From assembly GCA_029060545.1 (NCBI GenBank), contig JAIDTT010000081.1:1-47656 (forward strand): a DNA stretch of 47,656 nucleotides. Direction: 5' to 3'. How positions within the stretch are numbered: position 1 is the first letter of the stretch; each line of letters begins with the position of its first letter. Positions 5,097 through 17,473 of the stretch are shown piece by piece. Position numbers and translations under genes: made by a program. The notes under the pieces were generated by a model, which worked only from the letters and a program-made list of their open reading frames with translations, was not told the origin of the DNA and did not search any database. The DNA is from Paramuribaculum sp. (lineage in GTDB: Bacteria > Bacteroidota > Bacteroidia > Bacteroidales > Muribaculaceae).

Positions 5097-6302
5097 ATGG
5101 CATCCATTAAAGTTAAGTTCAGACCTTCGAAGATTACGGATCGCGAAGGCTCAATCTATTATCAAATTATCCATGAGAGATGTGTGCGACACATCGCGTC
5201 GCGTTATCGCGTACTCCCGTCGGAGTGGTGCGATAGGCGAGCGACGGTCATTGCCGGTGCTACTACACCCGAGCGCGAACAGCATTTGCGTTCGATCCGC
5301 GAAGGGATACATTGCGATGTGGAGCGGCTGACTGTCATAATCCGCAAGTTCGACAGGAGTGGCAGGATTTATTCCATAGAAGATGTCGCCGAGGAGTTCA
5401 AGCGTTTTCGTGAGGAATATTCGCTCTTCAACTTTATGGAGCGGGTTATCGATAAGCTACGTGCCAACGGCAAAATACGCACATCCGAGACCTATACTGC
5501 TGCTCTAAGAAGTTTCCGGCATTTCAGGCAGGGGAGGGATATAATGCTCGACCGCCTCAGCACCGCCATAATGGAAGAATATGAGGCGTGGCACACCCGG
5601 CGTGGCATACAGCCCAATACCATATCATTCTACAACCGGATCCTGCGGGCCGTCTATAATCGGGCCGTCGAGGAGGAGGTTATCGAAAACCGATATCCAT
5701 TCCGTCATGTATATACGGGTGTCGACAAGACGGTGAAACGCGCGCTCCCGCTCTCGATAATAAGGAAAATCAACAACCTTGATCTGTCGGGAGTACCCGC
5801 CATGGCGTATGCCCGCGATATGTTTATGCTCAGTTTCATGCTGCGTGGGATGAGCTTCATCGATATGGCCTTTCTGCGAAAGTCAGATCTAAGAGGCGGC
5901 CGCCTGACCTATCGCCGGCGCAAGACCGGGCAGACACTTGTCGTGGCGTGGACCCCGGAAATGCAATGCATCGTTGACCGGTATCCACAAAACGCGATGG
6001 AGTATCTGCTGCCGATCATACGAAAGCCGGCTGAAAACCTCCATACCGTATACCGTAATATAGGCTACAACATCAATCACAATCTCCGAAAGATAGCCTA
6101 TGCAATAGGTCTCAGTGTGCCCTTCACTCTCTATGTAGCCCGACATAGCTGGGCATCAGTAGCCCGAGCCAAAGGAATACCGTTGAGCGTGATAAGCGAA
6201 GGTATGGGACACGATAGTGAAGCCACCACACAGATCTATCTCGCCAGCCTCGATGCCTCCGCCATCGACCGCGCCAATTCCCTCATCCTCCGCAGCCTTT
6301 AG
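5097..6302 (+). CDS. Tyrosine-type site-specific recombinase/integrase (Bacteroidetes type)
   Basis: SFMLRGMSFIDMAFL, YRRRKTGQ, YVARHSWASVARAKG and GMGHDSEATTQIYL catalytic boxes. Confidence 0.93.
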   Translation: MASIKVKFRPSKITDREGSIYYQIIHERCVRHIASRYRVLPSEWCDRRATVIAGATTPEREQHLRSIREGIHCDVERLTVIIRKFDRSGRIYSIEDVAEEFKRFREEYSLFNFMERVIDKLRANGKIRTSETYTAALRSFRHFRQGRDIMLDRLSTAIMEEYEAWHTRRGIQPNTISFYNRILRAVYNRAVEEEVIENRYPFRHVYTGVDKTVKRALPLSIIRKINNLDLSGVPAMAYARDMFMLSFMLRGMSFIDMAFLRKSDLRGGRLTYRRRKTGQTLVVAWTPEMQCIVDRYPQNAMEYLLPIIRKPAENLHTVYRNIGYNINHNLRKIAYAIGLSVPFTLYVARHSWASVARAKGIPLSVISEGMGHDSEATTQIYLASLDASAIDRANSLILRSL

Positions 6303-6315
6303 GTGGAGGGATGGG

Positions 6316-8433
6316 TTAGATCCAGTCGTTCCAGTGGTCGCACAGCGAGCGGACCATGTGGCCGATGGCGGTGTGGGGGTAGCGTTTGGTTATAGTCTTC
6401 AGATTGCCGAGGATGTACTGGGCTTTTGCACGAGCTTCATCGGTAGTCAGCATTGCCAGTGCTGCCTCCACTTCCTGATTGTATATCGCTTCGGTATGCT
6501 TATGACCCGTCGATGTGTTATAATCATAAAGAAATGCATATTTGCGCTTGGCAAAATCGTCGTCCCAGTCGTAACGGAGGTTAGGCGAGAATTTGCCGGG
6601 TATCACTCCTCTCCAATACTGTGTGAGTGCCCAGCACTCCTCAAATGAGTTGAAGCGGCCGATGGCGTACATCAAGCGTGCCATACCGCGATCGTCGGCC
6701 GTTTTGCCGCTTCGCATATCTTTCTGATAATCCAGCATCCGGCGTGCGAATGTGAGTTTGGCATTCTCCGACGATAGAGTTGGTTTTGCGCCGGCGGCAA
6801 ATTCATACTCCCATTCGTCATCTACCCTCCAGCGGCTCGGATAAATGACGAATGGCTCATATTGTAAATATCTGTATATATTCATAGTACGCAGGTATTC
6901 CGGGCTGACATCGGAGAGGTATAGCACTGCGCGAGCGTAGTTGCCTTCGCGCAGTGCTAACGTGCCGATTAATTCATAGTAATAGTCGGAGTCAGTACGG
7001 ATAGTATTGTGCAGGAAGTCGTTGAGCGGAGTCGATTTCATCATGCTGCTGTGGGCGGCGGCAAGTTGCGAGGAGTTGAGGCTGCCCATAAGTTGAAATG
7101 CCAGACCGCCATAATCCGTGGTGTTGCGTTTGTGCTCGATGGCCTTAAGCCAGTCGCTTGGTAATAGCAGACGCAGAAAGTCCATTATATTCCAGTTACA
7201 GCAGATATCTCCTTCCATAGCCAAAGGTTCTGGAGCCATGTTATCGGCATAGGCGCAGAGTGCAATAGCTGCGGCGTAGTCACCTTTTTTCCACAACTCC
7301 GGTACCCAATCCGCGTAGATTATGTTGCGTAACCGGCGTGTCCATTCTTGGGCATGAGGAGTATCAGGGTCGGCGGTGCATTTATCCTCGATCCATTGTA
7401 GATCACAGACCAGCGACCCGATTCGTCCGGAGTGAGCGTCAAGTTTCATCTTGTAGGCGTGGGCGAGGTCGGCGAGCTCCTCACATGAAAATCTTTGCTT
7501 CAATGCCCGCTGCATATAGCGGTCGGCAAGCCGGGTGTTGTGGCCGTATTCATTGTAATAGTAGGCAAGCAGATAGAGCCAGTCGCCACGGCCCGTGGTT
7601 TTCTTTCGCCGAACCATCTTTTGTGCAATCGGAACGATTTCGATGAGTTTGGCCGAGTCAGTGCAGTTGTGGCGTATATATTCCATAATCTGAGGCGCGT
7701 CGGGATTGAGTGTTGCCGTCAGAGCTACCGGATTGTCTGCTTTGATCGACCCGATGGCTCCGGCTTTGGCAAAGAGTGAATCGGCACGCCCTACTTCGCC
7801 GAGACGGCTCCAGCATCCGGCTACATATTTCGATGCCATACGTTTGAGCAGGTTGGAATCGGAAACGAGTGCAAATGCCGAATCGTAGTAGTTGATACAC
7901 TCCGAGTATGCGCGAGAGGCAAACATCGCTCTCACCGCTTGAAATGCGTAGCGGTCGCGGAGGCGCTCCCCGCTGTAGGCTTTGCAGCAGGCTATCTCTG
8001 CGTTGTATTCGCCGGTGGTGCTATGACCGTCTCTATTACGTGGAAAGTACCACGGCGATTTGGTTGATGCCCACTTCTCCTCGATAGCTTTGGCTACACA
8101 CATAAAATCGGCGATTTCATCGTCGCCATTATTATTAAGGTACGCGAAAAATGGATTTTCGCAATATGAGTAACTGCCGTTGACATAATTATTCCAGTCA
8201 CTGAGTGTGCTTGAATACACGGCTTCATTGATAGCGTCCAAGTCCATATCCTTGTATGTGACGGATTGCCATAGCCGAAGATTTTCCTCTCTATCGAAGT
8301 CGGTAGTGACATTGGTATTGAAGAATTCGGGTGTTGGGATGATAGGGAAGTATGGGCCGCAGGCGACGGCGCGATCAGCTACGGTGCTCAGGAGCACACT
8401 AATGGTCAGCAGAAAGAATATTCGAGATCTCAT
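6316..8433 (-). CDS. Secreted hypothetical protein (705 aa), likely helical-repeat
   Basis: N-terminal signal sequence (MRSRIFFLLTISVLLSTVADRAVACGPYFPI); long intact ORF in a codon-biased frame; overlaps the upstream lipoprotein gene by 35 nt. Confidence 0.7.
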   Translation of the reverse strand: MRSRIFFLLTISVLLSTVADRAVACGPYFPIIPTPEFFNTNVTTDFDREENLRLWQSVTYKDMDLDAINEAVYSSTLSDWNNYVNGSYSYCENPFFAYLNNNGDDEIADFMCVAKAIEEKWASTKSPWYFPRNRDGHSTTGEYNAEIACCKAYSGERLRDRYAFQAVRAMFASRAYSECINYYDSAFALVSDSNLLKRMASKYVAGCWSRLGEVGRADSLFAKAGAIGSIKADNPVALTATLNPDAPQIMEYIRHNCTDSAKLIEIVPIAQKMVRRKKTTGRGDWLYLLAYYYNEYGHNTRLADRYMQRALKQRFSCEELADLAHAYKMKLDAHSGRIGSLVCDLQWIEDKCTADPDTPHAQEWTRRLRNIIYADWVPELWKKGDYAAAIALCAYADNMAPEPLAMEGDICCNWNIMDFLRLLLPSDWLKAIEHKRNTTDYGGLAFQLMGSLNSSQLAAAHSSMMKSTPLNDFLHNTIRTDSDYYYELIGTLALREGNYARAVLYLSDVSPEYLRTMNIYRYLQYEPFVIYPSRWRVDDEWEYEFAAGAKPTLSSENAKLTFARRMLDYQKDMRSGKTADDRGMARLMYAIGRFNSFEECWALTQYWRGVIPGKFSPNLRYDWDDDFAKRKYAFLYDYNTSTGHKHTEAIYNQEVEAALAMLTTDEARAKAQYILGNLKTITKRYPHTAIGHMVRSLCDHWNDWI

Positions 8434-9469
8434 CGGGCGTATAATTTGAAAGATTGCTTGTATCGAGGTGATAGAGTATGTTGGAATGAGGCTTGTCGGC
8501 GAGCCGTCGGTCGATCATCTCCTTTACGCGGATGATGTCGGTGTAGTCGGCTACTTCGGAGCGAATCATATCACCGGGCCAAATTATGATGTCGTTGTAC
8601 TGAATTTCATCCGTGGCAATATACCTGTTGGTGTGGCGGTACGAAAATCTGGTGGTGTCGGTAAGATCGAGGCCATTGAGCAGGCCGACGAACTGCCGCT
8701 GGCGGAAAAGCAGTTGCCAGTTATAAGTGGGGTAGGCTACGTCGAGGTGGATAGGATAGTCGGCAAGATGCTTGAGATACGGCTCCACATCGCGCACATC
8801 GATAATGGAATTATTGGTGTCGGGATCATTGAAACTGCCGGTGTTGTAGACCATGAGTACTCCGCGATCGACTGGAGGCACCTGACCCGACAGTTGATGC
8901 AGGCGTATGGTGGAACTTAGGCACCAGGGGAGTTGCTTACCGGCAATTACGGATTTTACCGAATCGCACAGGCGGAAATAGGACTGCTGAGTCGACGAAG
9001 TCCAGTCGCAATCAATCTGCAATTCAGCTACGTTGGGTATCCGGTAGTAGGAGCACATATTGCTTACACGGCTCACTATGTTGTTGGCCAGCATACCCTC
9101 ATTGTCGCTCATTGCTTTAAGGGCTTCCAGTGTGATATAGACCACGGGTACAAACTCGGTAGAGGCCAACGTATCAGCGAATAGAGCCACGGTGGCGTCG
9201 TCGATCTGCACCGAAGCATTAGGGTAAGTGGCATCTTCGGGGTGGTAGGCGTAGGGTTCCTGAGCCACATCGAACATCCGCAGATAGATGCGTCCGATGT
9301 TGTGACTGGCGAGAAATGCGAGGTCGATACTGTCGGGACTAAATACAGTCTTCCAATAGTAGACCGAATTCATTTCCTCGTGGGCAGGGCTTAGGGCCTC
9401 GGTCGAGGCAGCGCGGTCGCAGCATGAGTGGATGAACAGAAGCAGACAAGCGGAGATCAGATACTTCAT
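8399..9469 (-). CDS. Lipoprotein, possibly TIM-barrel DUF3142-like
   Basis: Lipobox LLLFIHSC; 'VAELQIDCDWTSSTQQSYFRL' and 'VLMVYNTGSF' reminiscent of DUF3142/GH-like barrels. Confidence 0.65.
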   Translation of the reverse strand: MKYLISACLLLFIHSCCDRAASTEALSPAHEEMNSVYYWKTVFSPDSIDLAFLASHNIGRIYLRMFDVAQEPYAYHPEDATYPNASVQIDDATVALFADTLASTEFVPVVYITLEALKAMSDNEGMLANNIVSRVSNMCSYYRIPNVAELQIDCDWTSSTQQSYFRLCDSVKSVIAGKQLPWCLSSTIRLHQLSGQVPPVDRGVLMVYNTGSFNDPDTNNSIIDVRDVEPYLKHLADYPIHLDVAYPTYNWQLLFRQRQFVGLLNGLDLTDTTRFSYRHTNRYIATDEIQYNDIIIWPGDMIRSEVADYTDIIRVKEMIDRRLADKPHSNILYHLDTSNLSNYTPDEISNILSADH

Positions 9470-9494
9470 AATCGTGATTGGTTATAGTCGCTGC

Positions 9495-9571
9495 AAAATT
9501 GGCGGAAAGAAATCGCGCTGCAAAATTCTTTGCAACGCGATGTATGAAATGCCGGCCGTGGTGTATGAAAT
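9495..9571 (-). promoter_or_regulatory. Putative LytTR-type operator (tgtatgaaat-N11-tgtatgaaat at 9541-9571) plus -7-like element CAATTTTG (9495-9502)
   Basis: Two identical 10-mers with 21-bp period, 38 bp upstream of a TAnnTTTG-like element, upstream of the 9469 gene. Confidence 0.6.
9515..9540. repeat. Inverted repeat cgcgctgcaaa-attc-tttgcaacgcg between operator and -7 element
   Basis: 11-bp arms with one mismatch, 4-nt loop. Confidence 0.6.
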
Positions 9572-9581
9572 TATTTCTCGA

Positions 9582-10454
9582 CTATTTCCACACTAAATAA
9601 TTGATCTGATCGTAGGGCGAATCGTTGTTGACTCCGAACTTATAGCGGTTACCCTCAGTGTCAGTGTAGGTGCCCGCAGCAGTACTGCCTACGAGATAGA
9701 TGGCATTGCGCACACCGGCATCGACAAGTGCCTGAGAGAAGTCGTGGAAGGTGAGTCGCTCGCTACTCAGCACCACACGTATCCGACCGTCGATTTCTGC
9801 GAGGGCTTTCCGCAGGGATATACCTTTAGGCTTGTTCTCGACTATCTGTCCGCCTACCACGAGCGGGTATTGCCGGAAGAAATAGCCTTCTGATTCTATA
9901 GCTTGTTCGAGCATTGGTGTTGCATCGGCGGTGCCTATGGTCATCTCGCCGTTGATTATAGCGCAGAATCCTGCTTTGGCTTCGCCGCGGCTAACGAGAT
10001 TGCCGCTTACGACACAAGCTCCGGCTATCTGACCGTTGTCGCCTCTGACGTCGGCTGCCTGCACTATCAGCACGGCTGTGGTATCGGCCAAGGCTTCGGG
10101 ACCTATAACCAGAGCGGGGGTAGCCTGCTCGGGTGTGAGTATTCGCAATCCTACTCCATTGACCACCGTATCGGTCACCGACACATACCCCGGCTCATTT
10201 ACGATAATCGCTGTGTCGGTTGCTTCCCTATATACCTCAACCTGAACGGTCGGAATTTCTTCAATCTGCAGTGTGGTGTCGCTTACTTCTTTGTCGGAAA
10301 GCGCAAGATACGTTATAATCACGCCCAAGGTGAGTATAACTGCTATCGCACCATATATCAGGATTCTTTGTCGGGATTTGGGTTTCGGCTTTATGCCCGA
10401 TGGGGAAATGATGCGTATCTCATCATCGTTGATGTCGTGTCGTCGTATTGTCAT
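9582..10454 (-). CDS. Single-pass membrane protein with phosphodiester glycosidase (NAGPA/DUF2233)-like domain
   Basis: TM segment ILIYGAIAVILTLGVIITYLAL; 'AGFCAIINGEMTIG...YPLVVGGQIVENKPKGISLRKALAEIDGRIRVVLSSERLTFHDFSQALVDAGVRNAIYLVGS' resembles the NAGPA fold. Confidence 0.65.
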   Translation of the reverse strand: MTIRRHDINDDEIRIISPSGIKPKPKSRQRILIYGAIAVILTLGVIITYLALSDKEVSDTTLQIEEIPTVQVEVYREATDTAIIVNEPGYVSVTDTVVNGVGLRILTPEQATPALVIGPEALADTTAVLIVQAADVRGDNGQIAGACVVSGNLVSRGEAKAGFCAIINGEMTIGTADATPMLEQAIESEGYFFRQYPLVVGGQIVENKPKGISLRKALAEIDGRIRVVLSSERLTFHDFSQALVDAGVRNAIYLVGSTAAGTYTDTEGNRYKFGVNNDSPYDQINYLVWK

Positions 10455-10816
10455 TTGACGTCCTCCTTTTCGATTAATTCTTTCAGGGCCTTCAGAGCAT
10501 CCTTCGAAGCCGATAATTCGTGGTGGAATGTGCGGCAGTCGGAAAGTACAAGTTTCTTGCGCTGCGGATGGATAAATACAATGAAGTCCCGGTTTACGAT
10601 CAGGCTCTTGCCAATGCGGATAAAACGATTGTCAGCTTCCGAAAGGCACTCGGCCAGATGGTCTTCGACATGCCCGAGTTGCAGCGTGACTACATATTCA
10701 CCAGCATCAATCGTATAAAGAGTGGAGTAGTTGCCGCCGGCCACGATGTAGACCACTGCATCGAACGGGATGCGGACGATTTCAGTAGTAGTGTTGAATA
10801 CGAGACGTTTTTCCAT
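10451..10816 (-). CDS. Stand-alone LytTR DNA-binding transcriptional regulator
   Basis: VVYIVAGGNYSTLYT...ADNRFIRIGKSLIVNRDFIVFIHPQRKKLVLSD matches the LytTR domain; no receiver domain; ATGA overlap with the downstream gene. Confidence 0.92.
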   Translation of the reverse strand: MEKRLVFNTTTEIVRIPFDAVVYIVAGGNYSTLYTIDAGEYVVTLQLGHVEDHLAECLSEADNRFIRIGKSLIVNRDFIVFIHPQRKKLVLSDCRTFHHELSASKDALKALKELIEKEDVK

Positions 10817-10844
10817 CTATAGCTTCGGAATCAAGAGCCTGTCG

Positions 10845-10852
10845 CAAAGTTA
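10845..10852 (-). promoter_or_regulatory. Putative -7 element TAACTTTG of the LytTR operon
   Basis: Reverse complement of caaagtta; matches TAnnTTTG. Confidence 0.4.
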
Positions 10853-10876
10853 AGTAAATTCCGCGGAATATCGTGT

Positions 10877-11641
10877 TCATTTGAACGGTTTGTTAGGGAA
10901 TCGACGGATGATGTCGAGAAATTCTGCCTCACGCGATACCAGACTATCGGGGTAATAGATGGCGATGGAGAATTCACATTCGCGATCCTCAATGTCCTTT
11001 TTTAGAATGATTTTGCTCAGGCAGTAATCGGCTCTTGGACTTTCGGGCCGGCTGTGATCTATCGTGATGCGCGAGAGATCTTCTTTGCGTTGTGACTTGA
11101 GTGTCTCCACTTTTCCTAATTGGGCATTGTAATCACGATGACGCTGCATCACGCTATCGGCATAATGAGGATAATCGACGAGCAGCACATCGTAGAAAAG
11201 TGCGCCTGTGCTGATTATGAGTGAAGTATCGGCGTTGTAGAATTCATTGTAGTGACAGCCTATCTCAAATTCACCCGATTGGTGGTAGCCCATATTCTGC
11301 GGGAGTTTCACATAGAAGCCGTGGCGGAAATTGTAATAGAACGGGTGTCCATCAAGAGTGGAAAATGCCTTGTAGAACCCTTTGACCGAATCAGCATAGC
11401 AGAAATGCCATATAGCTCCTTTTATACCCGATATGGTGTCGGGGCTCATATACCAGTCAGGAACCGTATCGGGCTCACCGAGCTGCTCCTGCTCCAACGG
11501 GACTTCTGCGATAGGAATAGTATCGCTCGCGTGATTATCGACAACTTCGACGGCTTTGCCGGGGGGAGTGCAACTGATTATTGCCATCAAGCTCGCCGTC
11601 AGCAAAGCCGCACCGCACGTACTCATAATTACCTTCTTCAT
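10877..11641 (-). CDS. Hypothetical lipoprotein
   Basis: Internal Met gives MKKVIMSTCGAALLTASLMAIISC with lipobox; preferred over the annotated 11713 start. Confidence 0.7.
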   Translation of the reverse strand: MKKVIMSTCGAALLTASLMAIISCTPPGKAVEVVDNHASDTIPIAEVPLEQEQLGEPDTVPDWYMSPDTISGIKGAIWHFCYADSVKGFYKAFSTLDGHPFYYNFRHGFYVKLPQNMGYHQSGEFEIGCHYNEFYNADTSLIISTGALFYDVLLVDYPHYADSVMQRHRDYNAQLGKVETLKSQRKEDLSRITIDHSRPESPRADYCLSKIILKKDIEDRECEFSIAIYYPDSLVSREAEFLDIIRRFPNKPFK

Positions 11642-11679
11642 CGTTATGAATTGTTGAGTTGGAATTATTATTTCGGCGA

Positions 11680-11757
11680 CAAAGGTAGTGGGAGCAGGGG
11701 AGTCGGTCAACAATTCGACTTCGCGATGTATGAAATGGCACCCTGGCTGTATGAAAT
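11680..11757 (-). promoter_or_regulatory. Putative LytTR-type operator (tgtatgaaat-N11-tgtatgaaat, 11727-11757) plus -7 TACCTTTG (11680-11687)
   Basis: Same 10-mers and 21-bp period as at 9541-9571; 39 bp from a consensus -7. Confidence 0.65.
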
Positions 11758-11911
11758 TATATTAGTTATGAGATTGTGGCTGAATATTGAGAACTGAGAT
11801 TAATTGCTGCAAAGTGTCGTATAATTGATGAAAAAGTGTTATATTTGCAAGCAATAATGCTGATTTGCTATCATAATCATATTTTAATTATTATTCATTA
11901 TTAAATCAATC

Positions 11912-14086
11912 ATGCAAAAAATTCTGACTCGTCTGCTTCCTGCGGTAGTACTGCTGGGAGCTACGTTGCTATCTTGTAGCGACGATGACAATTCAAAGAC
12001 GAAGACTTACGAGCAGCCTACCCACCGAGTGACTGTAGATGCGCTGCAGCGTACAGCAGCTACTTTCACTATTGAAGCTCCGCAAGCTGCCGATTATGCT
12101 TATGTGGTGCAGGAGAAGGATGAAGCACCCGTAACCGATGCCGAGGAGCTGTTTAAGACCGGTACCGTCGGTCTGCTCGAAGAAGGTAAAGCTTCGGTAA
12201 CTACCCACGATATCGAGGGTGCGAAGGAGTATGTTGTATATTCGGCTGTGCGCCGTATCAACCCTTACGTCTACAGCGATGTTGTTGCTACCGATCTCTC
12301 TACCGATCTACCTTATACCGATATCGTGACTCTCGATAAGGTTGGCCTGACCGATGTGGCTTATCATATAGAGATGCCCGATGGTGCTACTAAGGTGAAG
12401 CATATCTTAGTGAAGAAGGCCGACTATATCGCTATAAAGAATATCATCGGCTCTCTCGGTGAGATCAACGAACAGTTGTATCTCAAGGTGTTCGGCTTCA
12501 CTGCGGAGGAGACCGGCGATTTCCAGTTTGACAAAATCGTGGAATATGACTTTGATGCACACTCTATTTTACACACTGGTACGACTTACTATCTGATGGC
12601 AGGTGTAGTTGGAGATGATGGCGAGATCGATCCGGATTCGTTCGAGCTCATCGAATTCGATACCCGCAAACCCGCAGAGGCACCTTATAATATTGATGTA
12701 GCTGTGACCACTACTTCTACTCAGGCTATCGTTTCGGTGATTCCCGATCCGGAAATAGTGGAATACCGTCTGCTGGTGGCAGAACGTGCGGAGTTTGATT
12801 ATGCTCTTGCCGAAGGTGAGGCGCAGATGCGAAATCTCATCGTGGGCCTTTGGGATGACGAGCAGAACTCTCCTCAGCGTGTGCATACCGGTACGATTGA
12901 ATACAAATCGTTAGGCCTCATCCCGAATTCGGAATATGTGGTCGGTATCGTTGGTTACGATAAGGATCGTCGCGAAAAGTTGATCCGCTTTGACTTCGTA
13001 ACCGGCGAACCTACCGGTCCAAAACCGACACTGACGATTACTGAGGTCGAGCCATCGGTAGCTGCTCCATGGTCGACCAAGGCATTCAACGTGAAGGCTA
13101 CCAATACCACCGAGGTGCGCTACGGCTTCTTCATCAAGTCGCAGATAGATCAGTTGCTCTACAATGGCTCAACTCTCGCCAATGTAGTCCGAGCCAATGG
13201 TAACGGTTGCTCGCCGTCGGTACTCCAGCAGATGCTCAGCGACGAAGGTGTGATATTTGAGACCAGCGATCTGCAGCCTCAGACCGAATATATGTTTGCT
13301 GTGTATGCCCGCAACGATGAATACGTGACAGCTGTCGAATATGAAGTATTCACTACCGAGGAGACACCTCTGGTAGGCGGTGCAGTGCGCAAGAATATGC
13401 CCGGTAAGTACATAGCCAGCACAACGATCGATGAAGACGGTACGGTAGCTACCTTCCCCGTGACTATCGCCACGGGCTACGATGCACTTTCCACCGGTAT
13501 GTATAAAGATCAGAACCGTCTCGTATGCTTCGGCTTCGGTCCCGAATCTGAATACCCATTTGTGTCACCCACCGACCTGATCAATGGCGGTATGAGCTCC
13601 GATGATGCATACGCCAAGTATGGTCCGAAGTGGTTTATTGAATTTGTCAGCGATACGGAAATCAGAGTACCCAACCCGACATCCGGTTCCAACCAGTGGG
13701 TGATGGGCTACGACTCCGACAAGGGTAAAAACATTATGATGTATGGCTATGGTATCAGTGCTCGTAACGGCCGTGAATTCAACCGCGCCGAGACCTTCCC
13801 GGTGGAAGTGTCTGACGATGGCCGGACGATTACAATCAAAGGATCATATCTTGAAGCTCAACTTCTTTACTACTATCCTACGATGGTGATTCCCGGATCG
13901 GGGTGGATGAGCCCCGCTGTAGAGCTGTTCCGCTGCTATTCCGAACTTGTGCTCACCAAGCAGGAATCGGCTACTACGGCTTCTTCACGCCCCGCTCCTA
14001 TGGTGGCTCCCCGCGTAGTGTCTGGTAAGGTTGGCACTAATCTTATGAAGTCGCAGCGCGAAGGCATAGCATCAAAACTGAAATAA
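11912..14086 (+). CDS. Large lipoprotein with FnIII-like/Ig-like segments
   Basis: Lipobox VVLLGATLLSCSDDD; repeated 'P.SEYVVGIVGYDKDR' / 'QTEYMFAVYARNDEY' beta-sandwich-like segments. Confidence 0.7.
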   Translation: MQKILTRLLPAVVLLGATLLSCSDDDNSKTKTYEQPTHRVTVDALQRTAATFTIEAPQAADYAYVVQEKDEAPVTDAEELFKTGTVGLLEEGKASVTTHDIEGAKEYVVYSAVRRINPYVYSDVVATDLSTDLPYTDIVTLDKVGLTDVAYHIEMPDGATKVKHILVKKADYIAIKNIIGSLGEINEQLYLKVFGFTAEETGDFQFDKIVEYDFDAHSILHTGTTYYLMAGVVGDDGEIDPDSFELIEFDTRKPAEAPYNIDVAVTTTSTQAIVSVIPDPEIVEYRLLVAERAEFDYALAEGEAQMRNLIVGLWDDEQNSPQRVHTGTIEYKSLGLIPNSEYVVGIVGYDKDRREKLIRFDFVTGEPTGPKPTLTITEVEPSVAAPWSTKAFNVKATNTTEVRYGFFIKSQIDQLLYNGSTLANVVRANGNGCSPSVLQQMLSDEGVIFETSDLQPQTEYMFAVYARNDEYVTAVEYEVFTTEETPLVGGAVRKNMPGKYIASTTIDEDGTVATFPVTIATGYDALSTGMYKDQNRLVCFGFGPESEYPFVSPTDLINGGMSSDDAYAKYGPKWFIEFVSDTEIRVPNPTSGSNQWVMGYDSDKGKNIMMYGYGISARNGREFNRAETFPVEVSDDGRTITIKGSYLEAQLLYYYPTMVIPGSGWMSPAVELFRCYSELVLTKQESATTASSRPAPMVAPRVVSGKVGTNLMKSQREGIASKLK

Positions 14087-14117
14087 TCCAATAATCATAT
14101 AGAAATACTGAAAAACA

Positions 14118-15911
14118 ATGACAAGCCTATATAGAATTAAAGCTTTCATAGTGGCCGCTGCCGTAGGTTGCCTGTCGGTCGGCTTCTCATCATGTAGCGA
14201 TGACGATCCGGCGCTTCCAGGTACGGGTATTGAGATGGCCCAGTGGACCGATGTCAACGATGTAGACATCAATGGTCAGATTCTTGTGTATGAATTTGAG
14301 GCTCCCGCCGATTGGAGTGCTACGGCCGCCGACGATGAGTGGGTGCACGTGCTCACTCCCGAAGGAGCCAAGGGGCTATCGTCGCTGCGTGTCAAGGTCG
14401 ATCCAAACGACGGTATTCTCGGTCGTTCGTCGACTGTGACCGTTAAGGTCGACGGTTATGCCGAACCTTGCGTATTGACGCTACGTCAGGGCGACGGTGT
14501 GCTCGAAAAGGGTGACGGTCGTTATCGCGAAGTCAACAAGTGGATCTACGAGTATATGGAAGAACGCTATCTATGGAACGACCATGTGCCAGATCTGCTG
14601 CTCGACTATACTCTGGATTATCAGCAATTCCTCAGTCGTATGCTCAATGGCATTGCTGAATTCGACAATGTTAATGCCGAAGATGGCCATTGGGCTGACG
14701 GCAAACGTCAGTATTGGTACACCAATATCGACAGTAGCGCCCCACTGTCACGTACGGCAGGCGATACCAACACCGACTCCGGCCTGCTTATAATGGGTGC
14801 GAGTCTTACCGGGGATGATGGTGCTGACCATGTAGGTCTCGCAGTGCTATGGTGCACCCCCGGTTCGCCTGCCGACAAGGAGAATATCAAGCGTGGCCAC
14901 TTCATCTCGAAGGTCAACAATACGGAGATCACGATGGAGAATTACCGGGAGCTAGGTACACGTGCGCTCAACGGCAACTGTACGCTTGATATAAATGATG
15001 TGGTATTCAGTAGCAGCGGTATAGCCACTATCACTCCCGTACAATCAATATTCATCGGTAAGTATTCCTATACGGATCCCTCGATCTATGCATCTAAAAT
15101 CCTTGAACTAAAAAATGGCAAGAAGGTGGCCTATATCAATTATATGGGCTTCTATATGACTTACGACAGCGAGCTGATCGACCTCTTCGGCCAATTTAAG
15201 GATGCCGGTGTAGACGACCTGATCATAGACCTCCGATACAATCCCGGCGGACACGTGCTGTCGTCGACCGTACTAGGTACTCTTGTGGCCGGTTCGGCTC
15301 ACAAGGGTGAGATCTATGTGCGCACTACCTACAATGCTACCCGTACGGCTGCCGGAGAAGTAGGTGACTACAAGATCGGCGAGGCTGCCAATCCCGAGCA
15401 GGTGGCAGGCTATGACAAGATACCCGAAGCACTCAATAAGGCTCTCGGCCTTAACACTGTATACGTGATCACTACAGAGAATACGGCTTCGGCCAGCGAA
15501 CTCCTGATCAATGGTCTGCGCGGCCTCGGAATCACTGTCAATACTATCGGTATGACGACCAACGGTAAGAACGTGGGTATGGAAGGCATACGGTATACGT
15601 ATCGCAACTACTCGTTTGAATTCTATCCCATCACATTCTATTGCCAGAACGCACAGGGATTCAAGGACTATTCGACCGGTTTCAAGCCCGATTTTGAATT
15701 CGATGATTCGAAGTTCTATCCCTGCGACTTCGGTACCGAAAACGATGCATTCACTTACTATGCTCTGCAGTGGATCAGTTCCGGTAGCAAACCCTCTGTT
15801 GCATCCGGCTCGCGTGCCGCTCATGGTAATATCACCCCGCTGAAGATGTCGAGCGATATGCTTGCTCCTATGACCCGCCGACTCGGTGGATCGATCCAGT
15901 GGCGAGACTGA
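14118..15911 (+). CDS. S41-family (C-terminal processing) peptidase lipoprotein with N-terminal BACON-like domain
   Basis: LSVGFSSCSDDD lipobox; YEFEAPADWSATAADDEWVHV...VTLRQGDG-type BACON; IDLRYNPGGHVLSSTVL and TENTASASELLINGL catalytic motifs. Confidence 0.9.
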   Translation: MTSLYRIKAFIVAAAVGCLSVGFSSCSDDDPALPGTGIEMAQWTDVNDVDINGQILVYEFEAPADWSATAADDEWVHVLTPEGAKGLSSLRVKVDPNDGILGRSSTVTVKVDGYAEPCVLTLRQGDGVLEKGDGRYREVNKWIYEYMEERYLWNDHVPDLLLDYTLDYQQFLSRMLNGIAEFDNVNAEDGHWADGKRQYWYTNIDSSAPLSRTAGDTNTDSGLLIMGASLTGDDGADHVGLAVLWCTPGSPADKENIKRGHFISKVNNTEITMENYRELGTRALNGNCTLDINDVVFSSSGIATITPVQSIFIGKYSYTDPSIYASKILELKNGKKVAYINYMGFYMTYDSELIDLFGQFKDAGVDDLIIDLRYNPGGHVLSSTVLGTLVAGSAHKGEIYVRTTYNATRTAAGEVGDYKIGEAANPEQVAGYDKIPEALNKALGLNTVYVITTENTASASELLINGLRGLGITVNTIGMTTNGKNVGMEGIRYTYRNYSFEFYPITFYCQNAQGFKDYSTGFKPDFEFDDSKFYPCDFGTENDAFTYYALQWISSGSKPSVASGSRAAHGNITPLKMSSDMLAPMTRRLGGSIQWRD

Positions 15912-15997: not shown

Positions 15998-17473
15998 TCA
16001 ACTTTTGCGCTTGGGGTCGCAGGTGAGGCCTACACCGAGTTTCTTGAAGATCTTGCGGTCGACTTCGCCAAGCATTACGGTGGAGTGTACCTGACAGCCG
16101 TAGAGTTTTGGCAGCATCTCGAGCGCCCGGCGGCAATTCTCGTCGCGGGTAGATAGGACGGAGAGAGCCACCAGTACTTCGTCGGTGTGGAGGCGTGGGT
16201 TGTGACTGCGTAGATAGCTCATTTTTGTGTGCTGGATCGGTTCGATCATAGCCTGCGGAATGAGCTTTATCGAATGCTCTATGCCAGCGAGATGCTTTAG
16301 TGCGTTGAGAAGAAGGGCTGCACTCGGACCGAGCAGATCGCCCGACTCTGCCGTGATTATGGTGCCGTCCTCAAGCTCAATAGCCGAGCAGTAGCGGCCG
16401 CTTTGTTCGGCCCGCTCACGTGCGGCAACGGTGGTCTTTCGGTAGGCGGTGTTGATTTTGGCTTGCTTGAATAGCAGTGCGATCTTGCTGATCTCGCTAT
16501 CGTTAGCTTTTCCTACAGCAAGCTCGTTCAGAGCTGTGAAATATCGGCGGATAATCTCATCTTTAGAGGCTTCGCAGCATACTTCATCGTCATTGATACA
16601 GAAGCCGACCATATTCACTCCCATATCGGTAGGCGACTTATAGGGGTTTTCACCATAGATGCCTTCGAATAGGGCGTTGAGCACGGGGAATATCTCTATG
16701 TCGCGGTTGTAGTTGATAGCTGTCTTGCCGTATGCTTCAAGGTGGAAGGGGTCGATCATATTTACGTCGTTGAGGTCGGCAGTAGCAGCCTCATAAGCAA
16801 TGTTGACCGGGTGCTTAAGCGGAAGGCTCCATACGGGGAATGTCTCGAATTTGGCGTAGCCGGCTTCGATACCGCGCTTGTGCTCGTTGTAGAGCTGGCT
16901 GAGGCATACCGCCATCTTGCCGCTGCCGGGGCCGGGGGCGGTGACGATCACGAGCGGACGGGTCGTGGCGATGTAGTCATTGCGGCCGAACCCTTCGTCG
17001 GACGCGATCAGGTCAACGTTGGTCGGGTAGCCGTCGATGAGATAGTGGAAGTAGGTGGTGATGCCCATTCGCTCAAGGCGTTCACGGAAGGCGTCGGCAC
17101 TCTTCTGACCATTGTAGTGGGTCACCACTACCGAGCTGACGAGAAAACCGCGCTTCTGAAATTCGTTGCGAAGACGGAGCACATCCTCGTCGTAGGTGAT
17201 GCCCAGATCATTGCGCACTTTGTTTTTCTCGATATCGACGGCGCTGATCACGATCACGATTTCGGCGTGGTCAGAGAGCTGTGAGAGCATACGCAGTTTG
17301 CTGTCGGGCTGGAAACCGGGCAGTACGCGGCTTGCATGATAATCGTCGAAGAGTTTCCCGCCAAGCTCAAGATAGAGCTTGTTGCCGAACTGAGCTATAC
17401 GCTCTTTGATGTGTTCGGACTGAATTTTGAGATATTTCTCGTTGTCAAAACCGTATTTCATAACGGACAACAA
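15998..17473 (-). CDS. DUF1846 domain-containing protein
   Basis: MKYGFDNEKYLKIQSEHIKERIAQFGNKLYLELGGKLFDDYHASRVLPGF is the recognisable DUF1846 N-terminus. Confidence 0.92.
   Translation of the reverse strand: MLSVMKYGFDNEKYLKIQSEHIKERIAQFGNKLYLELGGKLFDDYHASRVLPGFQPDSKLRMLSQLSDHAEIVIVISAVDIEKNKVRNDLGITYDEDVLRLRNEFQKRGFLVSSVVVTHYNGQKSADAFRERLERMGITTYFHYLIDGYPTNVDLIASDEGFGRNDYIATTRPLVIVTAPGPGSGKMAVCLSQLYNEHKRGIEAGYAKFETFPVWSLPLKHPVNIAYEAATADLNDVNMIDPFHLEAYGKTAINYNRDIEIFPVLNALFEGIYGENPYKSPTDMGVNMVGFCINDDEVCCEASKDEIIRRYFTALNELAVGKANDSEISKIALLFKQAKINTAYRKTTVAARERAEQSGRYCSAIELEDGTIITAESGDLLGPSAALLLNALKHLAGIEHSIKLIPQAMIEPIQHTKMSYLRSHNPRLHTDEVLVALSVLSTRDENCRRALEMLPKLYGCQVHSTVMLGEVDRKIFKKLGVGLTCDPKRKS

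Follow-up and report, generated by a model that had tools for sequence, protein, structure and literature searches.

The window, ie the whole stretch of 47,656 nucleotides analysed here, carries on its minus strand a set of genes grouped around one for a LytTR DNA-binding protein, together with two copies of a direct-repeat pair. In the direction of transcription, a 254-amino acid lipoprotein, P0003 (10877-11641), is encoded first; its gene probably leads an operon P0003-LytTR-P0002 and is separated from the LytTR gene by a gap of 60 bp. P0003 matches no Pfam family above cut-off, and among 198 searched genomes of the family no relative was found outside its own genome. The LytTR gene, P0001 (10451-10816), encodes a soluble protein of 121 residues in which Pfam places LytTR at residues 12-115 (45 bits, cut-off 22.6) and finds no receiver domain. 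It had been described as a stand-alone gene in an earlier, sequence-only reading of this DNA. The gene is real, but it does not stand alone: it overlaps by 4 nucleotides a downstream membrane-partner gene, P0002 (9582-10454), which that reading had overlooked, and in relatives it is kept beside P0002-type genes. Directly before the LytTR gene is a -7-like element, TAACTTTG (10845-10852, minus strand), which is found at the same place in two related loci (L013 and L016) and is probably left over from the LytTR gene's own promoter. The genome has two LytTR genes in all, P0001 and one other. When solved structures were searched by sequence, a LytTR profile matched only a designed protein, by chance, and a PADLOC scan of P0001-P0007 for anti-phage defence gave no match.

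P0002 has 290 residues, consisting of a cytosolic tail, one membrane helix predicted at about residues 31-50, which crosses in a single pass, and an outer domain with the NAGPA fold. NAGPA is its only recognisable domain (Pfam, 26.5 bits). The AlphaFold2 model of the protein has a pLDDT of 88, and Foldseek matches the outer domain to animal NAGPA and to 3ohg with E-values of 6e-9 to 5e-8. The LDGG-type signature of NAGPA proteins is catalytic. At this position Slr0280 has LDGG whereas the 56 aligned sequences of the P0002 family are LVGS-like, and because of this replacement P0002 is probably not an active glycosidase. The cytosolic tail varies among relatives apart from DIxD(D/N)EIR(I/V)I, near-invariant in the alignment, which reads DINDDEIRII at residues 7-16 of P0002 (10407-10436, minus strand); R14 is present in 56/56 and I13 in 55/56 aligned relatives. 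Since the motif is short and conserved, lies in a disordered cytosolic tail and is encoded beside the LytTR gene, the DIxDDEIRII tail is the natural candidate for a LytTR contact. By analogy with the systems discussed below, P0002 is a probable LytTR-restraining sensor.

Beyond P0002 are two overlapping minus-strand genes, both predicted targets. The first encodes P0004 (8399-9469), a 356-residue lipoprotein with a GH18-like fold. Its model has a pLDDT of 91.5 and is matched by Foldseek to SleL and chitinases (best E-value 8e-10, TM 0.4-0.5); a sequence search of solved structures with P0004 gave nothing significant. The GH18 motif DxDxE is not kept in the P0004 family, which has DCDWT in 37 of 38 sequences and DCDWN in the other, so that the catalytic glutamate is missing. 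Because it combines a GH18-like fold with the loss of that residue, P0004 too may bind instead of cutting. The second gene encodes P0005 (6316-8433), an exported protein of 705 residues and unknown fold, which has no Pfam match and follows P0004 homologues in most relatives. A tyrosine recombinase gene (5097-6302, plus strand) converges on the end of the P0005 gene; the patchy distribution of the locus would fit a mobile one. On the other side, divergent from P0003, are plus-strand genes (11912-15911) for a lipoprotein and an S41 peptidase, which weakly match fn3 and BACON, respectively, and further out is a gene for an ordinary DUF1846 family protein (15998-17473, minus strand).

The repeats reported in the sequence-only reading were recovered by sequence search. 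TGTATGAAAT-N11-TGTATGAAAT occurs at 9541-9571 and at 11727-11757, in both cases with exact repeats and a 21-bp period; on the minus strand, that of the genes they face, each reads ATTTCATACA-N11-ATTTCATACA. Operator D (9541-9571) lies 10 nucleotides past the P0002 stop codon and faces P0004-P0005, and operator U (11727-11757) faces P0003-LytTR-P0002. At up to 3 mismatches the window contains 2 matches, compared to 0.01 expected from shuffled sequences. The genome was then searched in full, as had been suggested, by sequence pattern: at the same threshold, just the 2 window copies are found in 2,095,576 bp, and the repeat pattern read backwards has 0 matches there.

Both sites have the same geometry, with the proximal repeat followed after 16 bp by TTTG or TTGA and after 39 bp by a -7 element. 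At the P0004 promoter these are a -33-like TTTG at 9521-9524, which occupies positions 17-20 after the repeat and is a conserved column in relatives, and the -7 element CAATTTTG at 9494-9501; at the P0003 promoter they are a -33-like TTGA at 11707-11710, at the same offset, and TACCTTTG at 11680-11687 (all minus strand). The TAnnTTTG-like -7 element had been recognised earlier with distances of 38 and 39 bp; the element is real, and both distances measure 39 bp. The promoter form at these sites (TTTG, a 19-bp spacer, TAnnTTTG) is of the Bacteroidota type, and Bacteroides promoter entries likewise have it (PMC6193735). A sigma-70 consensus scan is uninformative here, since the organism uses -33/-7 promoters. 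Between operator D and its -7 element is a hairpin with a T-rich tail (9512-9541, minus strand; 13-bp stem, -19.2 kcal/mol, z -5.5), also overlooked earlier, which is a probable terminator of the LytTR operon. Possible control of the divergent 11912-15911 genes had been raised as well. Operator U points away from them, and their own -7-like element, TATATTTG at 11840, is 82 bp from the operator and not 39, so that their membership of the regulon is unsupported.

Within the family, 64 of 397 genomes have a P0002 orthologue, called above about 110 bits; other families of the order have them too. Scanning GTDB species genomes yielded 282 relatives, including Dysgonomonas macrotermitis and Parabacteroides sp. 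PF5-6, the latter a cultured carrier with two operators. The LytTR-P0002 pair is kept in about 60 relatives. Protein identity in the compared loci is mostly 35-65%, so there has been ample time for intergenic DNA to change. The operator was scanned for in 63 loci, from 40 nucleotides before to 400 nucleotides after the P0002 stop codon, and was found at no more than 4 mismatches in 20 after the P0002-type gene, ie at the place of operator D, in 52 of them. At the same threshold, 20 permuted motifs gave 5 sites in 1260 scans, and the real motif gave 0/61 at a distance of 2 kb; the reversed motif gave 0 in the 63 loci even at up to 5 mismatches. A site is present in 23 of the 26 loci that had no part in defining the motif; there are 27 such sites in total, 25 of them with the -7 element at 39 or 40 bp, while the 20 permuted motifs gave a single site there. 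The repeats are thus conserved where the LytTR gene is kept, which was the footprinting proposed with the sequence-only reading, and its suggestion that the LytTR protein would control 6316-9469 and 10877-11641 through the repeats is strongly supported by it. In some relatives that have the pair, among them L019, L129, L205, L207, L208 and L310, the motif picks out no operator.

The spacing to the -7 element is kept along with the operator. Of the 52 operator-bearing loci, 46 have a spacing of 39 bp and 6 one of 40 bp; it is 38-41 bp for 16/17 autoregulatory sites before LytTR, and 38-40 bp for 19/28 sites lying for the most part outside the module. Only about one locus in four has a strong autoregulatory site; several relatives have the operator 86-106 nucleotides before the LytTR start. 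At the level of whole genomes, sites with no more than 2 mismatches were found in 54/64 genomes with P0002 and in 58/333 without (Fisher p 4e-25, a value that overstates independence since the genomes are related), and the backwards motif was found in 7/397. To judge from these sequences, the sites and the pair are clearly inherited together. Among 13 tested genomes with sites and no P0002, 9 had a LytTR homologue, compared to 3 of 11 site-free ones. Some of the 58 P0002-less genomes match through a recurrent TGTATGAAATGATNGAGGTNGTNAATGAAAT-type sequence that is apparently a conserved part of a coding region; in L148, the only case examined, it is inside a 377-residue open reading frame.

A common gene order in relatives is operator - LytTR - P0002 - operator - P0004 - P0005, and when the order changes the operator moves or flips with the target gene. 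The second target is a giant protein of about 1800 residues in three loci (L013, L015 and L132), that of L013 being a bacterial alpha-2-macroglobulin. The target is divergent in L090 and L133, and there the operator is flipped to face it; L016 has an additional gene in inverted orientation, with an exact operator of its own. In L291 and L300 the target-LytTR-P0002 operon starts with the P0004-P0005-like genes and has a single operator in front of it; L303 and L311 have a different gene in this leading position, the operator of L303 being upstream of the whole operon. The window has this whole-operon layout, with P0003 as the leading gene. In relatives without P0003 the same operator is often directly upstream of LytTR, and for that reason the upstream site of the window most likely drives the P0003-LytTR-P0002 operon, ie is autoregulatory. 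At sites unlinked to the module, VWA-like proteins are found next to the operator in five genomes (L142, L182, L184, L185 and L199) and P0004 homologues in three (L183, L191 and L192). Over linked and unlinked sites together, the recurring operator-marked targets are GH18-fold lipoproteins, alpha-2-macroglobulin and VWA proteins. VWA-type proteins right after operator copies are mostly away from the LytTR locus, and a further example is L298 (Pfam VWA, 38 bits).

We take the locus to be a LytTR Regulatory System (LRS) of a so far undescribed variety, with a probability of about 0.77, in which P0002 would restrain LytTR and LytTR, when released, would activate its own operon and envelope genes. 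In the proposed mechanism P0001 is a soluble LytTR activator. P0002 would lie in the inner membrane, where its short cytosolic DINDDEIRII tail most likely holds P0001 and its outer NAGPA-fold domain probably serves to sense, and not to cut, an envelope or glycan cue. Once this restraint is lifted, P0001 would bind the two ATTTCATACA half-sites of 21-bp period and activate promoters whose -33 and -7 elements lie at the fixed distances of 16 and 39 bp. Operator U would then drive P0003-P0001-P0002, a positive feedback, and operator D would drive P0004-P0005.

An inhibitory P0002 is assumed by analogy with the LRS of Streptococcus mutans, and P0002 could instead activate or recruit LytTR: it might recruit or fold P0001 at the membrane, with a signal turning the pair on directly at the same operators and targets. 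Activation and inhibition are indistinguishable by sequence, and the conserved tail motif would serve either role; we nevertheless consider an activating P0002 rather unlikely, as the membrane protein of the characterised LRS is an inhibitor (PMC6193735). That P0001 represses from these sites is quite improbable. In principle, blocking or looping by a LytTR protein bound upstream is conceivable, but the sites are upstream of the -33 element and at a fixed 39-40 bp from the -7 element, the position and rigid phasing to be expected for an activator touching RNA polymerase; from a repressor one would expect tolerance of varied spacing or an overlap with the promoter. We give as little credit to the possibility that a different regulator binds the repeats and that the LytTR pair is a mere neighbour or target. 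Some genomes have sites and no detected pair, and a few of those have no detected LytTR homologue either. Against this, the sites co-occur with the pair, the remaining ones are mostly in genomes with a LytTR homologue, and they precede LytTR itself and its neighbours whatever the gene order; moreover, LytTR proteins bind paired repeats at two helical turns, and the genome has just one other LytTR gene.

The hairpin at the first site, and not the repeats, could also be the main regulatory element, as an attenuator or RNA switch, and the stem is indeed stable in the window and in many relatives, most of those with the tandem order having a similar one (judged by eye). RNA folding gives no such hairpin at the second window site, where the upstream neighbour is divergent, and none is evident at the unlinked sites, although operator and spacing are kept at these. 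L134, L136 and L137 have instead a stem that forms around the proximal repeat. These features make a hairpin as the main regulatory element very improbable and fit a terminator of the upstream LytTR operon that lies within the next operon's control region and whose 3' arm contains the -33 TTTG. The occurrence of two nearly identical modules within 2.2 kb might, finally, be put down to chance or to a mobile repeat copied twice. This is hardly credible, as the N11 spacers and the flanks differ between the copies, the genome contains no others, and the repeats are conserved at orthologous places across genera.

The LytTR domain of AgrA and ComE-type regulators binds paired repeats about two helical turns apart. 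P0001 shares with them the domain and the paired repeats at about that spacing; unlike P0001, they have a receiver domain and a sensor kinase. The fold of the P0002 outer domain is that of NAGPA/DUF2233 proteins (3ohg, BACOVA_00430; 5h3k, Slr0280; animal NAGPA), from which P0002 differs in the lost LDGG signature, the membrane anchor and the coupling to a LytTR gene. LRS have been characterised only in S. mutans, their signals being mostly unknown (PMC6193735). Like HdrRM and BrsRM there (PMC6193735), the present system has a soluble receiver-less LytTR protein, a membrane-protein gene downstream in the same operon, separate target promoters with repeats, and, in front of the operon promoter, 21-bp-period repeats (10 bp, 11 bp apart). 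It is set apart by a one-pass partner, with the NAGPA fold in its outer domain and DDEIRII as a conserved motif on the cytosolic side, by the gap from repeat to -33 element (16 bp, compared to about 10), by its Bacteroidota-type promoters, and by the fact that inhibition by P0002 is proposed by analogy; the repeat sequence does not match that of published LRS. LRS with unrelated membrane proteins are on record, so that homology of the partner to one of the five S. mutans LRS membrane proteins is not required for LRS in general (PMC6193735). The 'LRS-like' operons of Bacteroides thetaiotaomicron and B. ovatus resemble the present one in being from Bacteroidota, in repeats spaced 11 bp apart and in -33/-7 promoters with a 19-bp spacer; in contrast, their LytTR protein itself has membrane segments, their partner, encoded upstream, has NfeD and DUF2154 domains, and their repeat is of the TCCGGTATTCA type (PMC6193735). 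The system thus has those features of an LRS that can be checked in sequence, and differs in partner, repeat sequence and operator-to-33 distance. A literature search covering open-licence papers gave none that pairs LytTR with a phosphodiester glycosidase, with an alpha-2-macroglobulin or, for Bacteroid- organisms, with an FHA domain.

A wider generalisation, which we advance tentatively and at slightly below even odds, is that membrane-gated LytTR switches are widespread in Bacteroidales. One LytTR lineage would use interchangeable partners, either a dead phosphodiester-glycosidase sensor that grips LytTR by its ten-residue DIxDDEIRII tail or an FHA-domain membrane protein, with the same ATTTCATACA-type half-site 39-40 bp from the -7 element and an envelope-defence regulon of alpha-2-macroglobulin, VWA proteins and GH18-like lipoproteins. 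The locus itself would add to the LRS a Bacteroidales variety with a defined operator, a fixed promoter geometry and a list of predicted targets. Regulon members can be sought by the rule ATTTCATACA-N10/11-ATTTCATACA, 39-40 bp before NAnnTTTG, in genomes with almost no known regulation. The conserved tail peptide is a ready candidate for the contact between regulator and partner, and it becomes testable in common gut bacteria how a membrane protein whose enzyme domain is degenerate gates a transcription factor.

Several variants of the module were also seen. A variant repeat, TGTAAGAAAT-N11-TGTAAGAAAT, occurs in G348 (three copies), G394 and G297 (genus g17) and is perhaps the operator of another regulator lineage; G348 has no LytTR homologue at an E-value of 1e-10. 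In L222, L223, L224, L225 and L200 (also L227, L228, L229 and L232) the partner encoded after the homologous LytTR gene is an FHA-domain protein instead of one of NAGPA type. This partner has a hydrophobic segment (Pfam FHA, 37 bits for L222), and in L222, L223, L225 and L200 a variant operator is found at the end of the FHA gene. A second NAGPA-membrane subfamily is encoded beside LytTR in L212, L215 and L226, with a tail motif of the PVIIIE or PIIIIE type in place of DDEIRII.
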